34,344 nucleotides of DNA, taken from NCBI GenBank assembly GCA_025774805.1, contig JALGZR010000083.1, positions 1 to 34,344 of the forward strand, in the 5' to 3' direction. Below are positions 2 to 30,624 of this stretch, in pieces; the stretch's first letter is position 1, and each line of letters begins with the position of its first letter. A program made the position numbers and the translations under genes. Source of the stretch: a bacterium. Its GTDB lineage: Bacteria; ARS69. The notes beneath the pieces were generated by a model, which made no database searches, was not told where the DNA came from, and saw only the letters and a program-made list of their open reading frames with translations.

Positions 2-661
2 GAGTTCTCCGAGCTCGGGGCGGGATTCCGGCTGGCGATGCGCGACATGGAGATCCGGGGCGCCGGCAACTTCCTGGGGCCGGAGCAGTCGGGACACGTG
101 CACGCGGTCGGCTATGACCTCTACTGTCAGATGCTCCGCGAGGCGATCGCCGACCTGAAGGGCGTCGAGCGGCCGGAGGAGCGCATCTCCGTCCGGCTGG
201 AGGTGGAGATGGACGCCTACTTCCCGCGGGACTACATCGACGATCCCGATCAGCGCATTCAGTTCTACAAGCGGCTGGTCGACCTGGGGGAGCCGGGACC
301 GCTCCGGTCGCTCGAGGAGGAGCTGCAGGATCGGTACGGACGCCTTCCCGAGCCCGCCCGGAATCTGATGCGGCTCAAGGAGCTCCGCCTGCTCGCCGAG
401 CGGGGAGGCGTCGAGTGGGTCCGCGTCCGCGCCGGCGCGGCCGACTTCCGATTCGGGGAGGGACGAGAGGCCTCGCCGGAGACGGTCAAGGAGCTGCTCC
501 AGCGGGTTCCCGGTCGGCTCTCGTTCCAGGCCGACGGGAGGGAGGGGCTCCGCATCCGACTCGAGGCGGGCTCTCCCGAGGCGGCGCTGGAGGCCTCCGC
601 CACCCTCTTGCGGGTCGTCGGGGCCTCTGATACCGTCCTCGTTTCGACCGAGAAGCAATGA
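2..661 (+). CDS. mfd: Transcription-repair coupling factor Mfd, C-terminal part (5' end outside window)
   Basis: The reading frame is open from base 2 and continues the start of the window, so this is the last ~219 residues of a much larger protein (family usually about 1100-1200 residues). The segment with RDMEIRGAGNFLGPEQSGH is the conserved end of the RecG-like translocase module of Mfd, and the rest matches the C-terminal TRCF domain. Mfd removes RNA polymerase stalled at DNA lesions and recruits UvrA for nucleotide excision repair in the cytoplasm. Its TGA stop overlaps the ATG of the next gene (ATGA), so the two are probably translationally coupled. Family assignment is secure; nothing can be said about the missing helicase domains. 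Confidence 0.95.
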   Translation, partial: EFSELGAGFRLAMRDMEIRGAGNFLGPEQSGHVHAVGYDLYCQMLREAIADLKGVERPEERISVRLEVEMDAYFPRDYIDDPDQRIQFYKRLVDLGEPGPLRSLEEELQDRYGRLPEPARNLMRLKELRLLAERGGVEWVRVRAGAADFRFGEGREASPETVKELLQRVPGRLSFQADGREGLRIRLEAGSPEAALEASATLLRVVGASDTVLVSTEKQ

Positions 662-2400
662 TGAGGAAAGGGGATACGGAATTGTTGCAGGAGACCAAAA
701 GGGCGGTCCTTTTCGCGGCCATCCTGGCCGGACTCGCCGGATGCGGGGGTAAAGAGAGCGGGACCGAGAAGATCGTGGCGACCGCCGGAGACATCCGGGT
801 GACGTTGGCTGAGTTCCAGGAGGCCTACCATCAGATCACGCCGAACTACCGGCCGGATATCTCGACTCTGGAAGGCAAGCGCGCCTTCGCCGACGATCTC
901 GTCAACAAGGAGATCCTCCTCCTCGAGGCCAAGCGTCTGGGCGGTTTCGAGAGTCCGGAGCTGACCGAAACGATGGAGCACCGCCGGAAGCAGGAGATGC
1001 TCGGGATCCTCTTTCGGGATGAAATCGAGTCCCAGGTCGAGGTCCCCGGACACGCGGTGGCCGAGCTCTACGATATGCGGAAATGGAACGCGCGGATTTC
1101 GCACATCCTTCTCGGGGATGCGGCCGAGGCCCGGCGGATCCGGGAGGAGATCGTGTCGGGAGAAAAGACGTTCGAGGAGGCCGCTCGGGAGCACTCCATG
1201 GATCGCAAGACGTCCCGGAACGACGGGAGTCTGGGCGAGATCCAGTGGGGGCAGTCGATCCCCGAGTTCCAGAAGGTCGCCTTCGAACTGGAGCCGGGAG
1301 AGATCTCCGAGCCGGTGGAGACGACGTACGGCGTCCATCTCGTTCGGTTGGACGAGCGGCTGCCCCAGGAGGTCGGCACGCTCGAGGAGACGCGCCCTCT
1401 CCTGCGGGATGACGCGCGACGTCACCTCACGAACCTGAAGACCCGTGAGTTCATGCAGTGGCTGGAAGAGAAGGAGGGGCTCACCTGGAACCCGGAGGGG
1501 CTCGACCTGACCCTCGAGCTGATCCGGAAGTGTCTCGAGCTCGATGCCGACACCATTCCGAATGAGCGGCGCTACGTTCCCGCGCCCACCGACGATCAAC
1601 GAAAGGTCGTCATCGCCTCGTTCAGCGGCCGGGACTGGACGATCGGCGAATACGTGGACTTCGTCGCGGGCCGCCCCGTTCCCCTCCGGGTGCAGGGTCC
1701 GATTCCCCGCAACGGACTCCAGGAGCTGATCCGGTCGGTCCAGATCCACGAACAACTGCTCGTGAAGGAGGCGAAGGCGCGCGGGCTCGACCAGCGACCG
1801 GAGGTCGTGAGCGCCGTCACCCGTCTCCACGAACAGGTCATGATCGAGCACGTTCACGGGCGCTTCCTGCAGGCCGCGGACGTCACCCCCGAGGAGGTCC
1901 GGGCGGTCTACGATTCGATGCGGACCGTGGACGAGGAGTCGCTCATGATTCCCGAAAGGGTCGACATGATCGTCCTCGTCCACACCGAGCGAAAAAGGGT
2001 GGAGGAGGGTCTGCGCCGGATCCGGGCGGGCGAGGATGAGGGAGCCGTCTGCAAGGAGATCTCTCTCGACCTTCGCACACGGGACAAGAAAGGTCGCACC
2101 GGGCTCATCGCGCGCGGAAGCTACGCTCCCGAAATGGAGGAGGTCGCGTTCTCGGGGATCGCCGGCCAGGGGTGGACGGATCCGATTCAGACGGGATCGG
2201 GGGTGGGAGCCGTCAAGGTGTTGGTCCACGAACAGCCCCGGATCGCCGAGTTCGAGGACGTCGAGGCGGCGTACACCCGTCAGCTCATCAACGCGCGCGG
2301 CGAGACCGCGTTCGAGGAGTGGATCCAGGAACAGCGGGACGCGCTTGGGGTAGTCATCCACGACGACGTTCTCGAGCTGATCGGCGAACCCGTCTCCTGA
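658..2400 (+). CDS. Parvulin-type peptidyl-prolyl isomerase lipoprotein
   Basis: A 580-residue protein with a lipoprotein signal: hydrophobic stretch about residues 16-28 and lipobox LAGC ending at Cys29. A SurA/PrsA-like N-terminal chaperone region follows. A recognisable parvulin (PpiC) domain spans about residues 145-233, with the typical 'ISHIL', 'DGSLGEI' and 'GVHLVRL' elements. A second, more divergent parvulin-like segment lies in the last third. The inferred role is folding of exported proteins at the periplasmic face of a membrane. The start overlaps the mfd stop by 4 bases, and an ATG at 661 is an equally possible start. The next gene is a second, SurA-like isomerase 6 bp downstream, so the two probably work on the same pathway. 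The exact subfamily (PrsA-like or SurA-like) is uncertain. Confidence 0.88.
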   Translation: MMRKGDTELLQETKRAVLFAAILAGLAGCGGKESGTEKIVATAGDIRVTLAEFQEAYHQITPNYRPDISTLEGKRAFADDLVNKEILLLEAKRLGGFESPELTETMEHRRKQEMLGILFRDEIESQVEVPGHAVAELYDMRKWNARISHILLGDAAEARRIREEIVSGEKTFEEAAREHSMDRKTSRNDGSLGEIQWGQSIPEFQKVAFELEPGEISEPVETTYGVHLVRLDERLPQEVGTLEETRPLLRDDARRHLTNLKTREFMQWLEEKEGLTWNPEGLDLTLELIRKCLELDADTIPNERRYVPAPTDDQRKVVIASFSGRDWTIGEYVDFVAGRPVPLRVQGPIPRNGLQELIRSVQIHEQLLVKEAKARGLDQRPEVVSAVTRLHEQVMIEHVHGRFLQAADVTPEEVRAVYDSMRTVDEESLMIPERVDMIVLVHTERKRVEEGLRRIRAGEDEGAVCKEISLDLRTRDKKGRTGLIARGSYAPEMEEVAFSGIAGQGWTDPIQTGSGVGAVKVLVHEQPRIAEFEDVEAAYTRQLINARGETAFEEWIQEQRDALGVVIHDDVLELIGEPVS

Positions 2401-2406
2401 GGGAAC

Positions 2407-3747
2407 ATGTCCGGCAACGACTTCCAGCGGAACCGAGGGCGGGGGGCGGTGGCCATCGTCGCCCTCCTCCTCTTCTCCGTCACGCTCTCTACGCACGTCG
2501 CGGGAGAAGAGCCCGAGCTCCTCGACGGCATCGCGGCCGTCGTGGGGGAGGAGATCATCCTGATCTCCGAGGTCGAGGAGGAGCTCTTCCTGGCCAGTCT
2601 TCGCGGCCGGCTCGATCTCGGCGACACCGAGGCGGTCGAGAGGTACCGCGCCGAGATCCTCGACGCCCTGGTCGAAGGCAAGATCCTGCTGGCCAAAGCG
2701 CGGGCGGAGGGCATCCGGCCCGAGCGGGAGGAGATCGACTCCGCGGTCCTTCGAATGGTCGACGAGATCCGCGCCCGGTTCCCGAGCGAAGAGGCCTTCC
2801 AGGCCCAGCTCGAGCTCGAGGGAACGAGCGTCGAGGAACTGGAGCGCGGCCACCGGAACAAGGTCGAAGAGCAGCTCGCGGTTCGACAGCTCGTGGACCG
2901 GAGCGTCCGCAGTCGCGTGAACGTGGACGAGCGCGAGGTGCAGCAGTACTGGGACGAGCACCGGGAGGAGATCCCGGCCGTTCCCGCCGGTCTCGATCTG
3001 TCCCACATCCGGGTCGATCTCCGTTCCGGGGCCGCGGTCGACAGCGCCGCGATCCGGCGGGCCGAGATCGTCCTCGGGAGGCTGGAGGCGGGTGAGGACT
3101 TCGCGACGCTCGCGAAGGTCTTCTCCGAGGGCCCGGCCGCCGCGATCGGCGGTGAACTGGGCTGGTTCGAGATCGCCGATCTGGACCCGGTGCTGTCCGA
3201 GGCGGTCCGCGACCGCGAGCCGGGCGGTCTCACCGACGTCGTCGTCTCCGGACGCGGCGCCCACATCCTGCGGGTGGAGGACGTTCGCGACGAAGGACGG
3301 TCGATGTCGCTCCGGCAGATCGTCTTCCTGCGCGACGAGGAAGCCGCCCGGTCGGCGGCTCTCGCCCGCGCTCAGGACCTCCGGCGACGCCTCGAGGCGG
3401 GCGAGGACTTCGCCGAGCTGGCCCGGGCGGAGTCGGACGATCCCCGGGCCGCGGAGGCGGCCGGGCACCTCGGCCTGGTGCCGCTCGAGGCCCTTCCCTC
3501 CGAGTTCCGTCCCCGACTCGAGCCGCTCGAGCCGGGGGAGATCTCGCCCGTTCTCGAGAGCCCCGAGGGTTTTTTCATCTTCCGGGCCAACGCCAAGGAA
3601 GGCGAACGGAAGCCCACCTACAAAGAGGCCCACGACCGGATCCTCTCCCTCCTCGAGCAGGAGAAGGCGGCCGAAATCTATCGGGAGTTCCTCGGCAAGA
3701 TCCGCTCGGAGGTCTACGTCGAGATCCGGACGCCCGAAGAGAGCTGA
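2407..3747 (+). CDS. surA: SurA-like periplasmic chaperone / peptidyl-prolyl isomerase
   Basis: A 446-residue protein with a cleavable-type signal peptide (hydrophobic residues about 13-27, cleavage probably before GEEPELL). A SurA N-terminal domain follows ('LDGIAAVVGEEIILISEVEEE' region), then two tandem parvulin domains at about residues 196-293 and 301-395. This N domain plus two parvulin domains is the SurA architecture, which escorts unfolded beta-barrel proteins to the outer-membrane assembly machinery. It sits 6 bp after the lipoprotein isomerase and 3 bp before pdxA; surA-pdxA adjacency is also seen in E. coli. A predicted beta-barrel protein encoded at 11.8-14.1 kb is a plausible client. 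The symbol is given by architecture and neighbourhood, not by a database match. Confidence 0.85.
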   Translation: MSGNDFQRNRGRGAVAIVALLLFSVTLSTHVAGEEPELLDGIAAVVGEEIILISEVEEELFLASLRGRLDLGDTEAVERYRAEILDALVEGKILLAKARAEGIRPEREEIDSAVLRMVDEIRARFPSEEAFQAQLELEGTSVEELERGHRNKVEEQLAVRQLVDRSVRSRVNVDEREVQQYWDEHREEIPAVPAGLDLSHIRVDLRSGAAVDSAAIRRAEIVLGRLEAGEDFATLAKVFSEGPAAAIGGELGWFEIADLDPVLSEAVRDREPGGLTDVVVSGRGAHILRVEDVRDEGRSMSLRQIVFLRDEEAARSAALARAQDLRRRLEAGEDFAELARAESDDPRAAEAAGHLGLVPLEALPSEFRPRLEPLEPGEISPVLESPEGFFIFRANAKEGERKPTYKEAHDRILSLLEQEKAAEIYREFLGKIRSEVYVEIRTPEES

Positions 3748-17807: not shown

Positions 17808-17899
17808 CAGCGCCCCTGTGAAGCCCTTGTGAACCAACGGCGATTCCCGTGCGCGCGGGGTCGACACCGCACCCGGCGCGCTTCCCGAGGCGACCTCCG

Positions 17900-19735
17900 A
17901 TGAGCCTGAACATGCGCTGGCGGGTGATCATCATCCTCGGGGCCATCGTCCTCGCGCTGTTCGCCGTCCGCTCGACCTACCGCTACACCCGCCTGACTGA
18001 GAGCGAGCGGGAGGGAATGGACCCCGCCGAGCTCCAGGAGCTCAAGAACGCGGCCCTCCGTCTCGGCCTCGACCTTCAGGGGGGGATGCACCTCGTGCTC
18101 GAGATCGACGAGTCCGAGATCAAGGATCCGGACTTCGAGATCGGAGACATCATGGATCGGGCGCTCGAGGTCATACGGAACCGCATCGACGAGTTCGGGG
18201 TCACCGAGCCGGTGGTCCAGAAGGCGGGGAACCGCCGCATCATCGTGGAGCTCGCCGGGGTGGACGACTTCGAGCTCGCCCGCGAGATCATCTCCAAGGC
18301 CGCGGTGCTCGAGTTCCAGATGGTCCGACCCCGCGCCGAGATGTCACGCCTCATCGACAAGCTCGATCTGGAGCTCGCCAAAAACGCCGGACTGGCGGCC
18401 GCGTCCTCCGTGGACGACGCGTCGAGCGATTCCCCGGACGAGCCGTTCGGGGGTGCGGACAACGCGGCGGAGGAAAGCGTGGAGGACGGCGCCGAGGAGA
18501 GCGGAGAGGAAGAGGCCGACGAAGGCGCGGACGAAGGGGGAGCGGAAGGCGATTCCACGGCGATCGGGGCTCCGGAGACTCCCGGCGGGGCGGGGGAGGA
18601 GGTCGAAGAGATCGACCTCGTCGCGTACCTCGCCGAGGACGTCGAGCTGACGGCGGGGCGTCCGCTGCACTCCCGAATCGACTACCAGGAGTGGCAGGGG
18701 CGGATCGCCGTGAACTACACGGCCCGTATCCTCGAGGAGGATTACGAACGGGTCGCCGCCTACCTCGAGTTCCTGGACGAGAACACCCGGGTCATCCCCG
18801 AGGACGTGGAGTTCGCCTGGCACTCCGACACGTTCACCGACGGAGCGGGGAACCGGACTCGGAACCTCTACCTCTTGACGTCGCAGCCCGAGCTGACCGG
18901 CGAGATGCTCGAGGACGCCCGCCCCCAGCCCGACAACACCTCGAACATCGCCGGCAACTTCCTGGTCGAGTTCGATCTGAATCGAACCGGCCGCCGGCAC
19001 TTCAGTCGGACGACGGGAGAGAACGTCGGCCGGCAGATGGCGATCGTTCTCGACGGCAAGGTCCGGTCCGCGCCCGAGATCCAGGAGAAGATCCGCGCCG
19101 GGACGGCCAGCATCACCGGGCGATTCACGCCCGAGGACGCGAACGCGCTGGCCGTCGTGCTCCGGGCGGGCGCCCTCCCCGTGCCCATCGCGATCGAGGA
19201 GCAGCGGGCCGTCGGACCCTCGCTCGGACAGGACTCCATACGCATGGGCACGACCGCGATCCTTTACGGATTCATGGCGGTGCTCGTCTTCATGGCCATC
19301 TACTACCGCGCCGCGGGGTTCATCGCCGTCTTCGCCCTCTTGCTGAACCTCCTCTTCATGACCGCGGTCCTGGTCTATCTCGACGCCGTCCTCACGCTGC
19401 CCGGCATCGCCGGCTTCGTACTCACGGTCGGCATGGCCGTGGACGCGAACGTGCTCATCTTCGAGCGGATTCGGGAAGAGCTCCGAGTCGGTCAGACGTT
19501 CCGCAATGCGGTGAGCCGCGGTTTCGAGCGCGCGTTCCGCACGATCTTCGACGCCAACCTCACGACGCTCATCACCGCCCTCGCGCTTCTCTGGTTCGGC
19601 ACGGGCCCCATCAAGGGGTTCGCGATCACCCTGTCCATCGGAATCGTCGTCAGCATGTTCACCGCGCTCTTCGTGTCCCGGGTCGTCTTCGACCTCATGA
19701 CGTACGGGGGTCGCGTCCGCCGGATTCCGATCTGA
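17900..19735 (+). CDS. secD: Protein translocase subunit SecD
   Basis: A 611-residue RND-type translocase subunit. TM1 is at about 8-24, followed by 'GLDLQGGMHLVLEID' (56-70), a large periplasmic domain, 'DGKVRSAPEI' (385-394) and five C-terminal membrane segments with 'GMAVDANVLIFERI'. SecD with SecF uses the proton-motive force to pull exported proteins out of the Sec channel. The ATG at 17900 has GAGG at -10 and places TM1 correctly; an upstream GTG at 17849 would add only a Pro/Arg-rich tail. Odd feature: residues about 168-238 of the periplasmic domain are a Glu/Asp/Gly/Ser/Ala-rich low-complexity insertion that ordinary SecD lacks. Confidence 0.95.
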   Translation: MSLNMRWRVIIILGAIVLALFAVRSTYRYTRLTESEREGMDPAELQELKNAALRLGLDLQGGMHLVLEIDESEIKDPDFEIGDIMDRALEVIRNRIDEFGVTEPVVQKAGNRRIIVELAGVDDFELAREIISKAAVLEFQMVRPRAEMSRLIDKLDLELAKNAGLAAASSVDDASSDSPDEPFGGADNAAEESVEDGAEESGEEEADEGADEGGAEGDSTAIGAPETPGGAGEEVEEIDLVAYLAEDVELTAGRPLHSRIDYQEWQGRIAVNYTARILEEDYERVAAYLEFLDENTRVIPEDVEFAWHSDTFTDGAGNRTRNLYLLTSQPELTGEMLEDARPQPDNTSNIAGNFLVEFDLNRTGRRHFSRTTGENVGRQMAIVLDGKVRSAPEIQEKIRAGTASITGRFTPEDANALAVVLRAGALPVPIAIEEQRAVGPSLGQDSIRMGTTAILYGFMAVLVFMAIYYRAAGFIAVFALLLNLLFMTAVLVYLDAVLTLPGIAGFVLTVGMAVDANVLIFERIREELRVGQTFRNAVSRGFERAFRTIFDANLTTLITALALLWFGTGPIKGFAITLSIGIVVSMFTALFVSRVVFDLMTYGGRVRRIPI

Positions 19736-19763
19736 CGCCGGCGAAACCGAGGAGACCGAAGCC

Positions 19764-20657
19764 GTGAGATTGTTCGGAGAGACCAACGTCAACTTCGTGG
19801 GACGGCGGGGAATGGCCGCCGTCCTCTCGGCGTTGCTGATCGGCGCGGGGCTCGTCTCTCTCGTCACCAAGGGCGGCCCGAAGTACTCGATCGATTTCAC
19901 CGGCGGATCCCTGGTCCAGGTGCAGTTCACGGAGATCGTGTCGGTGGACGAGGTGCGCTCCGCCCTCGCCGCGATCGGACACTCCGATGCCGAGATCCAG
20001 CGATTCGGCCCTCCGAACGAGATGCTCGTCCGGATTCCCGACAAGGGCGACGAGGAGTCGATGGAACGGGTGAAGGAGAGCCTTCGCGATCGCTGGCCCG
20101 GATTGAGCCTCCGGCGGGAGGAGACGGTCGGACCGAAGATCGGAGGCGAGCTGCGGAGCGCCGCGGGTCAGGCGATCATCTTCGCGCTGGTCCTGATTCT
20201 CGTCTACATCACGATCCGCTTCGAGTTCCGGTTCGCGGTGGCGGCGATTGTCGCGCTCGTCCACGACGTCCTGATCACCCTCGGGGTCTTCAGCATCGCG
20301 GATTTCGAGGTCTCCCTCGCGGTCATCGCGGCCTTCCTCACGATCGTGGGGTACTCGCTCAACGACACGATCGTGGTCTTCGACCGCATTCGGGAAAACC
20401 TCCGGACCCCGGCCCGAAAGGGATACGACGTGGTCCTGAACAGGAGCATCAACCAGTCGCTCTCCCGGACAATCATCACCTCGGGGACGACCCTGGTCGT
20501 GGTCTTCGTGCTCTATCTGTTCGGGGGGGAGGTCCTTCGGGACTTCTCCTTCGCCCTCGTGATCGGGGTGCTCATCGGGACCTACTCGTCGATCTTCGTG
20601 GCGACGCCGCTGCTGGTGGAGTGGGAGCTGCGCCGGCCCCGCAAGCCCCGGAAATAG
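19764..20657 (+). CDS. secF: Protein translocase subunit SecF
   Basis: A 297-residue partner of SecD. It has TM1 at about 16-34, the characteristic 'IDFTGGSLVQVQF' (43-55), a small periplasmic domain, then five membrane segments with 'VGYSLNDTIVVFDRIRENL' and a C-terminal 'YSSIFVATPLL' segment. The GTG at 19764 gives the expected N terminus and lies 28 bp after secD, so the two are co-transcribed. No YajC gene is present in the window. Confidence 0.95.
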   Translation: MRLFGETNVNFVGRRGMAAVLSALLIGAGLVSLVTKGGPKYSIDFTGGSLVQVQFTEIVSVDEVRSALAAIGHSDAEIQRFGPPNEMLVRIPDKGDEESMERVKESLRDRWPGLSLRREETVGPKIGGELRSAAGQAIIFALVLILVYITIRFEFRFAVAAIVALVHDVLITLGVFSIADFEVSLAVIAAFLTIVGYSLNDTIVVFDRIRENLRTPARKGYDVVLNRSINQSLSRTIITSGTTLVVVFVLYLFGGEVLRDFSFALVIGVLIGTYSSIFVATPLLVEWELRRPRKPRK

Positions 20658-28407: not shown

Positions 28408-29691
28408 TCACGTATGCCCCGTTTCCTTCCGGCGACTCTTTCCGCCCGATGAGGGTGGGGGCTCGGGATCGGAATTGCCGTCATCCTCGCTCAGGATGCC
28501 GGTGACGATTTGCGTGAGCATCCATGGAAACACGCTTCCGCGCTTCGCGTATCCGTTGATGACAATCGAGGGCGTAACCGTGAGGCCGAGTTCGCTGCAG
28601 AGTGCGATGTCACCGGCCACCCTGTCGGTCGGTCCGTTTCCCTCCATGCAGGCCAGGAACTCTCCCTCATCGAGTCCGATGTCGGTGAGTTTGGTCAGCG
28701 TGGATTGCTTTCCGACCGAGCGATTGGGGATCTCCTGGAACAGATAGTCGTGGAAGTCCCAGAACTTGCCCTGCGCCTCGGCGCAGACCCCCGCTTTCGC
28801 CAGCCAACAGGCGTCGGGATGGAAATTCCCCGGAATGGCCTCATTGCATTCCGAACTCAGCGGGGAGTGCACGAAGACCACCCGAATGTCCTCTGGATAC
28901 TCTCTCCGCAGATCCTCCACGGTGTTCGCGAGGGAGCGGCAAAAGCTGCACTGAAAGTCTCCAATGAGCACGACATTCACAGCCGCGCTCGTCGGCCCCT
29001 GGGATGGGTGGCGATCGAATCGAACCATGTCGATCTCCGGAGCACTCGCCATGCGTCGCGTGAAGTCCGCGACCTCGTTCTGGCCGTACGTCCGGATCTC
29101 CCGAAGAGGTTCAAGAACCGTAACCAAGCAGATCGCCGCAACCGTCAGAGTGACTCCCATCAGGCCCGACTGGAAAAGAGCGCGGTAATAGTCCGTATCC
29201 GTTCCGTGGCGGAGGAGACGCCACGAAGGAAGAATCCGGGACCAACGCACGGGCTCCTCGAGATCCCGGTTCAGCTTCCAGAAACTGAGCAGGAGCAGAA
29301 GATTGAGCACATGGGTGGCCACGCAGTTCAAGCAGATCGTTCCGATCTGCGCCACCATCACGAACAGCAGATAGAGATCGTAGAGGAGCGCCAGCGTGCA
29401 GGCAGTCGTCCCCAGGGTGACGAACGCCTTCCGTTCCCCTCCTCGCAGGAGGAGGGCACACAAAGACACGCCGAGGAGGCATACGTAGAAGAGAAGTCCC
29501 CAGACGGCGACAGGCAGCTCCAGGAGCCAGGAGGACTCGTGCGCAGCCACCTGATCGCAGTCGAAAAGGCCGGCGCCGCCACAGAACAACCCTTCCGTCA
29601 CCCCGCCGCCATAGACGCTGAGATGGCTCTTCACCAGGTAGACGCAGACGACCACGCCTGCGCCGGCCAGAACGACAGGCAGAGCCAGCAA
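28408..29691 (-). CDS. VKOR-DsbA fusion (disulfide bond-forming membrane enzyme)
   Basis: 427 residues. The N-terminal half is a bacterial vitamin K epoxide reductase homologue with four membrane helices (about 5-21, 57-82, 89-112, 118-138), loop cysteines C37 and C45, a conserved Ser in 'HESSW' and the active-site C120-L-N-C123. A fifth TM (about 176-193) leads to a periplasmic DsbA-like thioredoxin domain with C248-S-F-C251 and cis-Pro374 ('TVTPS'). Additional cysteines are C282, C295, C303, C348 and C365. Such fusions oxidise cysteines of exported proteins and pass electrons to quinone. The only in-frame start before TM1 is TTG (29691). A perfect SD-like GGAGAGGAG lies ~30 nt further upstream (29722-29730) with no start codon after it, so the N terminus is uncertain. 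The gene is less GC-rich than its neighbours. Confidence 0.9.
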   Translation of the reverse strand: MLALPVVLAGAGVVVCVYLVKSHLSVYGGGVTEGLFCGGAGLFDCDQVAAHESSWLLELPVAVWGLLFYVCLLGVSLCALLLRGGERKAFVTLGTTACTLALLYDLYLLFVMVAQIGTICLNCVATHVLNLLLLLSFWKLNRDLEEPVRWSRILPSWRLLRHGTDTDYYRALFQSGLMGVTLTVAAICLVTVLEPLREIRTYGQNEVADFTRRMASAPEIDMVRFDRHPSQGPTSAAVNVVLIGDFQCSFCRSLANTVEDLRREYPEDIRVVFVHSPLSSECNEAIPGNFHPDACWLAKAGVCAEAQGKFWDFHDYLFQEIPNRSVGKQSTLTKLTDIGLDEGEFLACMEGNGPTDRVAGDIALCSELGLTVTPSIVINGYAKRGSVFPWMLTQIVTGILSEDDGNSDPEPPPSSGGKSRRKETGHT

Positions 29692-29940
29692 GGCGCTCTT
29701 CGCCGCGCGGTTGTGCGAGGTCTCCTCTCCAGGATCAGTCGAGTCGATGAAGCACCTCGAAATGCGATGCCCCCCGCCAGACCGGAGACGGGGGACACGC
29801 GGCCGGGACCCATTGCTGGGTCCCGGGCAACAACAGCCGATCCTCTCTCGAGAGACTCATTCCACGGTGAGCGACCACCGTGCGCAGGACGAAGCCGCCA
29901 CTCCGGCGCGCGAGAGGATCTCTCTCCTCGTGCCTCCGAT
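29692..29940 (-). other. Structured 249-nt spacer between the Cys-rich gene and the VKOR-DsbA gene
   Basis: No convincing gene on either strand. It holds a perfect 10-bp hairpin at 29803-29826 (CCGGGACCCA / TGGGTCCCGG) whose loop reads GCAA in the minus-strand RNA, a perfect 12-bp palindrome TCTCTCGAGAGA at 29844-29855, and a 9-bp complementary pair GATCCTCTC / GAGAGGATC about 60 nt apart (29840 and 29910). No T-run follows the hairpin. It could set the relative expression of the two genes by processing or attenuation. Confidence 0.5.
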
Positions 29941-30414
29941 CTACGGCTGAGGTCCCGGGTGATAGAGCGACTTGATGACGCCCCACGTGGTCGGCTCAAC
30001 CGCGGTTGGCCCGGGCTCCTCTGTCAGGAAGAGGATTCCCGGGTCCTCGGGATCCGCCTCGGCCGGCTGGACACCCTCAACACCGGTATCTTTATTCGAG
30101 CAAATGAAACCGCTATTCAAGTTCGTAGGTGCCTCACCGGCTGGCGAATGGCTTCCGACCACGCAGTACCAATTAAACCAGGCCATCTGTCTGCCCGGGC
30201 GGTCGAAGCATGGCTTTCCCGCCGGGACAGTGGGGGTTGCCGTGCACTGGGCCAGGCCCGATATGGGACCGGCCGGCTTGCCGCCGGGCACTCCATCGTT
30301 CGCGCCGGGCGCGGGTGACCAATCCCAGCAGCATGCGTCGAATGCATTCGCGATCACCGGGCTCAGAACAAAGATCGCGGCTCCAAGGAACGGTAACAGC
30401 GGTAGCCGTTTCAT
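29941..30414 (-). CDS. Six-cysteine exported protein, function unknown
   Basis: 157 residues. The ATG at 30414 follows a perfect SD (AAGGAGGT, 7 bases away); an ATG 33 bases further upstream (30447) is less likely. A classical signal peptide (MKRLPLLPFLGAAIFVLSP, cleavage after about ANA24) leaves a mature protein of ~133 residues. The mature protein has six cysteines (28, 29, 57, 69, 84, 105), many Pro/Gly residues, several Trp, and an acidic Pro-rich C-terminal tail. An even number of cysteines in an exported, loop-rich protein suggests three disulfides. The next gene on the same strand encodes a VKOR-DsbA enzyme, so this may be its client. No family is recognised. Peptide-like precursors or a small redox/electron-transfer protein are alternatives. 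Confidence 0.8.
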   Translation of the reverse strand: MKRLPLLPFLGAAIFVLSPVIANAFDACCWDWSPAPGANDGVPGGKPAGPISGLAQCTATPTVPAGKPCFDRPGRQMAWFNWYCVVGSHSPAGEAPTNLNSGFICSNKDTGVEGVQPAEADPEDPGILFLTEEPGPTAVEPTTWGVIKSLYHPGPQP

Positions 30415-30624
30415 GATTGAGACCTCCTTGGACCTCCTCGGGTCCATCTCGCCCCGCTTCAGGTGTCAAGACGAACAAGAAACAGTACAGACCTGTGGGC
30501 GCCGTTCCGCAGGGAAGCCCTTGCTGCTCCTTGAGCGTCTAGGTGAGATGACTCGGGTGCGTTCCCGAGCCGGCTCGGTCCGGAATCGAGGCTGTTGGGG
30601 CAGGGGTGCGGGGATCGGAGCCGA

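Follow-up and report, generated by a model that had tools for sequence, protein, structure and literature searches.

A short C-terminal tail on unrelated exported proteins, met beside a VKOR-DsbA fusion, as a proposed sorting signal

Two adjacent genes on the minus strand of a bacterial contig, one encoding a small cysteine-rich exported protein and the other a fusion of VKOR with a DsbA-like domain, raise the question of whether they form a dedicated disulfide pair, as an earlier note on this DNA had suggested, or whether the small protein belongs with other exported proteins of its host. Here, we address this question across the whole stretch of DNA analysed (34,344 nucleotides, hereafter the window), the remainder of the host genome and a broad set of sampled genomes. 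Of the two products, the enzyme is of a known kind and ordinary for it; the other is an orphan cargo, and its C-terminal tail is what merits further work.

The two genes and their products

Both open reading frames were confirmed in position and strand, and they are the only convincing genes on the minus strand of the window, the other long minus-strand frames looking like shadows of plus-strand genes. The features of the locus are as follows.

28408..29691, minus strand: VKOR-DsbA fusion, 427 aa from a TTG start, in a frame open to 29856
29803..29826, minus strand: GC-rich intergenic hairpin (perfect, 10 bp), with no T-run after it
29941..30414, minus strand: small Cys-rich exported protein, 157 aa with six Cys, its ectodomain without detectable homologue
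29959..30009, minus strand: C-terminal tail PTAVEPTTWGVIKSLYH of the small protein, followed by PGPQP and the stop; it belongs to the tail class WGx[IV]KxL[YF]R
30343..30414, minus strand: Sec signal peptide MKRLPLLPFLGAAIFVLSPVIANA of the small protein, read directly, with a helix at residues 9-29 in a low-confidence model
30422..30429, minus strand: Shine-Dalgarno sequence AAGGAGGT of the small gene, read directly

The small gene starts with an ATG at 30414, and the Shine-Dalgarno sequence (a strong one), signal peptide and six cysteines described earlier are all present. The predicted fold of its product was uninformative (mean pLDDT 38.5), and searches of Pfam, NCBIfam, PHROGs and the PDB, as well as the type A CTD model TIGR04183, gave no match. 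No homologue was found in 98 relatives, in five sampled genomes of the host phylum or in a scan of GTDB contigs with a method that detects close relatives only, and none of the ectodomain in 22 selected genomes. Weak matches to the whole protein or to the ectodomain proved to be off-frame, stop-containing or of low complexity. The sole real match, and the only recognisable similarity of the protein, was to the tail of a secreted protein (...DTWGGVKALYR) in the same-family genome G001, and the conserved part of the small protein is thus its C-terminus, ...TAVEPTTWGVIKSLYH.

The second gene encodes what the earlier reading had described, with matches to the Pfam families VKOR (1.7e-16), Thioredoxin_4 (1.4e-9) and DSBA (2.4e-6). 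Like VKOR-thioredoxin and VKOR-DsbA fusion oxidases, the protein combines a VKOR loop cysteine pair (C37, C45) and CxxC (C120-L-N-C123) with a thioredoxin-fold domain carrying its own CxxC (C248-S-F-C251) and a cis-Pro (T373-P374), and none of these residues varies in either of two alignments, one of 12 fusions and one of 8. The AlphaFold model (mean pLDDT 77.6) is compatible with one half being helical and membrane-bound and the other having a thioredoxin fold; the best PDB matches were DsbA-like proteins covering the DsbA half, and no VKOR structure was among the 50 PDB matches listed. By family membership, the enzyme would be a general quinone-linked thiol oxidase. It differs from its aligned full-length relatives elsewhere in its low identity to them (23-31%), and VKOR was not found in four same-family genomes (three incomplete or fragmented assemblies and one near complete). 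Since VKOR was found only in the host genome among the five sampled from the phylum, acquisition of the oxidase gene is plausible. Four further cysteines in the DsbA half (C282, C295, C303 and C348) are also invariant in the 8 full-length fusions, which suggests extra structural disulfides in this subgroup. The TTG start is uncertain and the true start may be different, as the upstream frame lacks ATG and GTG codons as far as 29856; this region (29692-29856, minus strand) carries, about 25 nt ahead of the TTG, a strong Shine-Dalgarno-like GGAGAGGAG, and its translation contains SHNRAAKSA, a sequence that would suit the stretch leading into a first transmembrane helix.

The lower GC content reported for the two genes was borne out as a mild difference (0.633 for the small gene and 0.611 for the fusion against 0.679 for the window), and GC3 is 0.71 and 0.76, respectively, against mostly 0.81-0.90 in the clearest genes of the window. 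As a sign of foreign origin, the GC of the small gene by itself is weak, because several other tail genes of the host have a GC of 0.60-0.65.

The tail and the proteins that carry it

A DNA pattern describing the tail, of the kind used for all genome-wide counts, matched once in the window (0.00 expected) and 26 times in the host genome, with no match to the reversed-pattern control, and in every one of the 26 cases the tail sits at or close to the end of an open reading frame, within about 9-20 codons of its stop. The consensus of 46 inspected tails is [VT]-E-x-x-[ST]-W-G-x-[IV]-K-x-L-[YF]-R, at or near the COOH end, and conservation extends to positions outside the search pattern (S or T at -1 in 43, E at -4 in 29 and G at +1 in 37 tails). 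A simple rule detected a signal peptide in at least 34 of the 46 proteins, a minimum count as some frames are truncated or mis-started, and about half of the proteins contain four or more cysteines. Stripped of signal peptide and tail, the 46 proteins fall into 31 groups unrelated by blastp, and the domains found on them include PPC, CBM20, LTD, cupredoxin and PD40, with a near-threshold choice-of-anchor J domain in one. The small protein of the window is one of these exported proteins, a class native to the lineage and defined by its C-terminal tail.

In 44 of the 46 proteins, the last 50 residues hold no strongly hydrophobic segment (maximum KD17 above 1.6 in the other two), and the hydrophobic moment of the tail was not above that of shuffled peptides, giving no indication of an amphipathic helix. 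The tail of the window protein departs slightly from the consensus: R is replaced by H, and the stop follows only after five more residues. Extensions of 1-10 residues after the motif also occur at L125, L124, L130 and L139, the one in the window occupying 29941-29958, and a free C-terminal arginine may thus not be strictly required. Tail genes are additionally found as tandem series of related copies (contigs C105 and C257 of the host genome and C51 of G329), suggesting local duplication.

Distribution of the tail and its possible reader

Under a strict pattern in which the stop codon is part of the match, the tail is present in 10-48 copies per genome in 17 of 386 genomes, which are all the sampled genomes of eight families, and the reversed control gave 0 in each. 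The other 369 genomes have 0-2 copies, some of these being real-looking tails (e.g. L148, L151, L152 and L157), and the 35 genomes reached through other named VKOR or DsbA loci have none. SprA, the outer-membrane translocon of the type IX secretion system (T9SS), of which SprA_N is a part, was found in all 17 tail-rich genomes, compared with 5 of 18 tail-free genomes that were hand-picked rather than random (Fisher p = 6e-6; 8e-4 with tail-rich families counted once, which does not remove shared ancestry). It was also found in most of the low-copy genomes tested, and the host genome encodes it in an open frame of about 2,100 aa (G000:C50). This is a correlation, and common descent may account for the presence of both the tail and SprA in related lineages.

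Based on these data, we hold with moderate confidence that the small protein is one cargo of an exported class and that its tail is a sorting signal, probably read by the T9SS (SprA) or a partner of it. Sec export by a signal peptide and the redox chemistry of VKOR and DsbA follow from known families. The precursor would be exported by Sec and its cysteines oxidised in the periplasm, where the VKOR-DsbA enzyme could act on any exported protein; the VKOR half would re-oxidise its own DsbA half, and the DsbA half would oxidise exported cysteine proteins, probably including the small protein encoded next to it. Once Sec has exported the protein, its tail would be recognised either in the periplasm or at the outer membrane, the probable reader being the type IX (SprA) translocon or a shuttle or sortase partner, and would direct the protein to surface display or release outside the cell.

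The tail shares with the type A (TIGR04183), type B (TIGR04131) and type C CTDs of the T9SS the combination of an N-terminal Sec signal and a conserved C-terminal element on unrelated cargo, as well as the presence of SprA in the genomes rich in it. It differs in length, about 15-20 residues against about 100 residues for types A and C and 150-235 for type B (PMC10202324, PMC12618676), and would consequently be a second, much shorter signal. Type A CTDs, Ig-like and about 100 aa long, are abundant in the same tail-rich genomes, and TIGR04183 matched none of 20 tail proteins scanned. A recurring neighbour of the tail genes was followed up and turned out to be proteins with ordinary type-A-like CTDs. 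Three host-genome loci (L118, L115 and L139) have such neighbours, with the pattern PNPF...WNGRD..G..V.AGVYFVRL, the two signal classes thus standing side by side.

Like the PEP-CTERM, GlyGly-CTERM and MYXO-CTERM tails, the tail is a short C-terminal motif that is confined to certain lineages and found on dozens of exported proteins unrelated to one another. Unlike them, it has no transmembrane helix before its basic end and is therefore not tripartite (motif, transmembrane helix and basic cluster), and the 20 scanned proteins gave no match to the corresponding models. The tail is not described by any Pfam or NCBIfam model, and a search of the literature on it and on the T9SS in candidate phyla found nothing relevant. 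We accordingly propose that the signal is distinct from CTD types A-C and from PEP-CTERM-type tails. Somewhat more tentatively, the tail may be an undescribed short, non-transmembrane sorting signal that works beside type A CTDs in several lineages and has its own reader in or near a divergent T9SS. Against the main explanation, some SprA-positive genomes have no tail, the tail of the window protein is itself slightly off consensus, and the tail-rich genomes already use type A CTDs, so that a second signal needs its own reader, and none was found.

We consider it rather unlikely that some machine besides the T9SS (e.g. an unknown peptidase or an outer-membrane receptor) uses the tail for sorting or anchoring and that SprA co-occurs only by lineage. 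This would account for SprA in tail-free genomes and for a tail unlike type A, B and C CTDs in both length and sequence (PMC10202324, PMC12618676), but fits less well with SprA in every one of the 17 tail-rich genomes and with the absence or near-absence of the tail in the SprA-negative genomes examined. It is quite improbable that the tail, instead of being a transport signal, serves exported proteins for retention, for stability or for docking to other proteins: its shortness, the rarity of transmembrane segments and the lack of a known enzyme partner would agree with such a role, whereas unrelated proteins, a fixed C-terminal position and restriction to certain lineages make up the usual picture of a sorting tail, as for PEP-CTERM and MYXO-CTERM (PMC1569441, PMC11980579).

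As a sorting signal, the tail would be of value in several ways. If it predicts destination, it would label many unannotated exported proteins of these little-known lineages, and it could serve as a phyletic marker for finding its own reader. Further, it would put to the test whether a signal much shorter than the known CTDs of 100-235 residues is accepted by the type IX translocon.

The question of a dedicated pair

The earlier note had proposed that the small protein is a dedicated client or partner of the VKOR-DsbA enzyme, and that homologues of the former should be sought beside VKOR-DsbA genes elsewhere. As no homologue of the ectodomain was found in the genomes searched, linkage to VKOR-DsbA in other genomes cannot be shown, and nine other VKOR-DsbA loci had no convincing small Cys-rich exported neighbour. 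The co-occurrence check thus fails to support the pair, and the idea of a cassette rests on the adjacency of the two genes on the same strand, on their GC3 being below that of most window genes and on neither gene being found in the four same-family genomes. Of the suggested acquisition as a unit, the part concerning the oxidase is plausible, but the small protein carries a tail native to the lineage. That the small protein is a specific client or redox partner acquired together with the enzyme is very doubtful, given also that the four relatives without detected VKOR have tail-class exported proteins with 4-6 cysteines and that the two genes are separated by a gap of about 250 nt with a hairpin. 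In addition to the oxidase, the window groups several genes for the folding and export of exported proteins, including two SurA-like peptidyl-prolyl isomerases, SecD and SecF (631-3741 and 17822-20651, plus strand).
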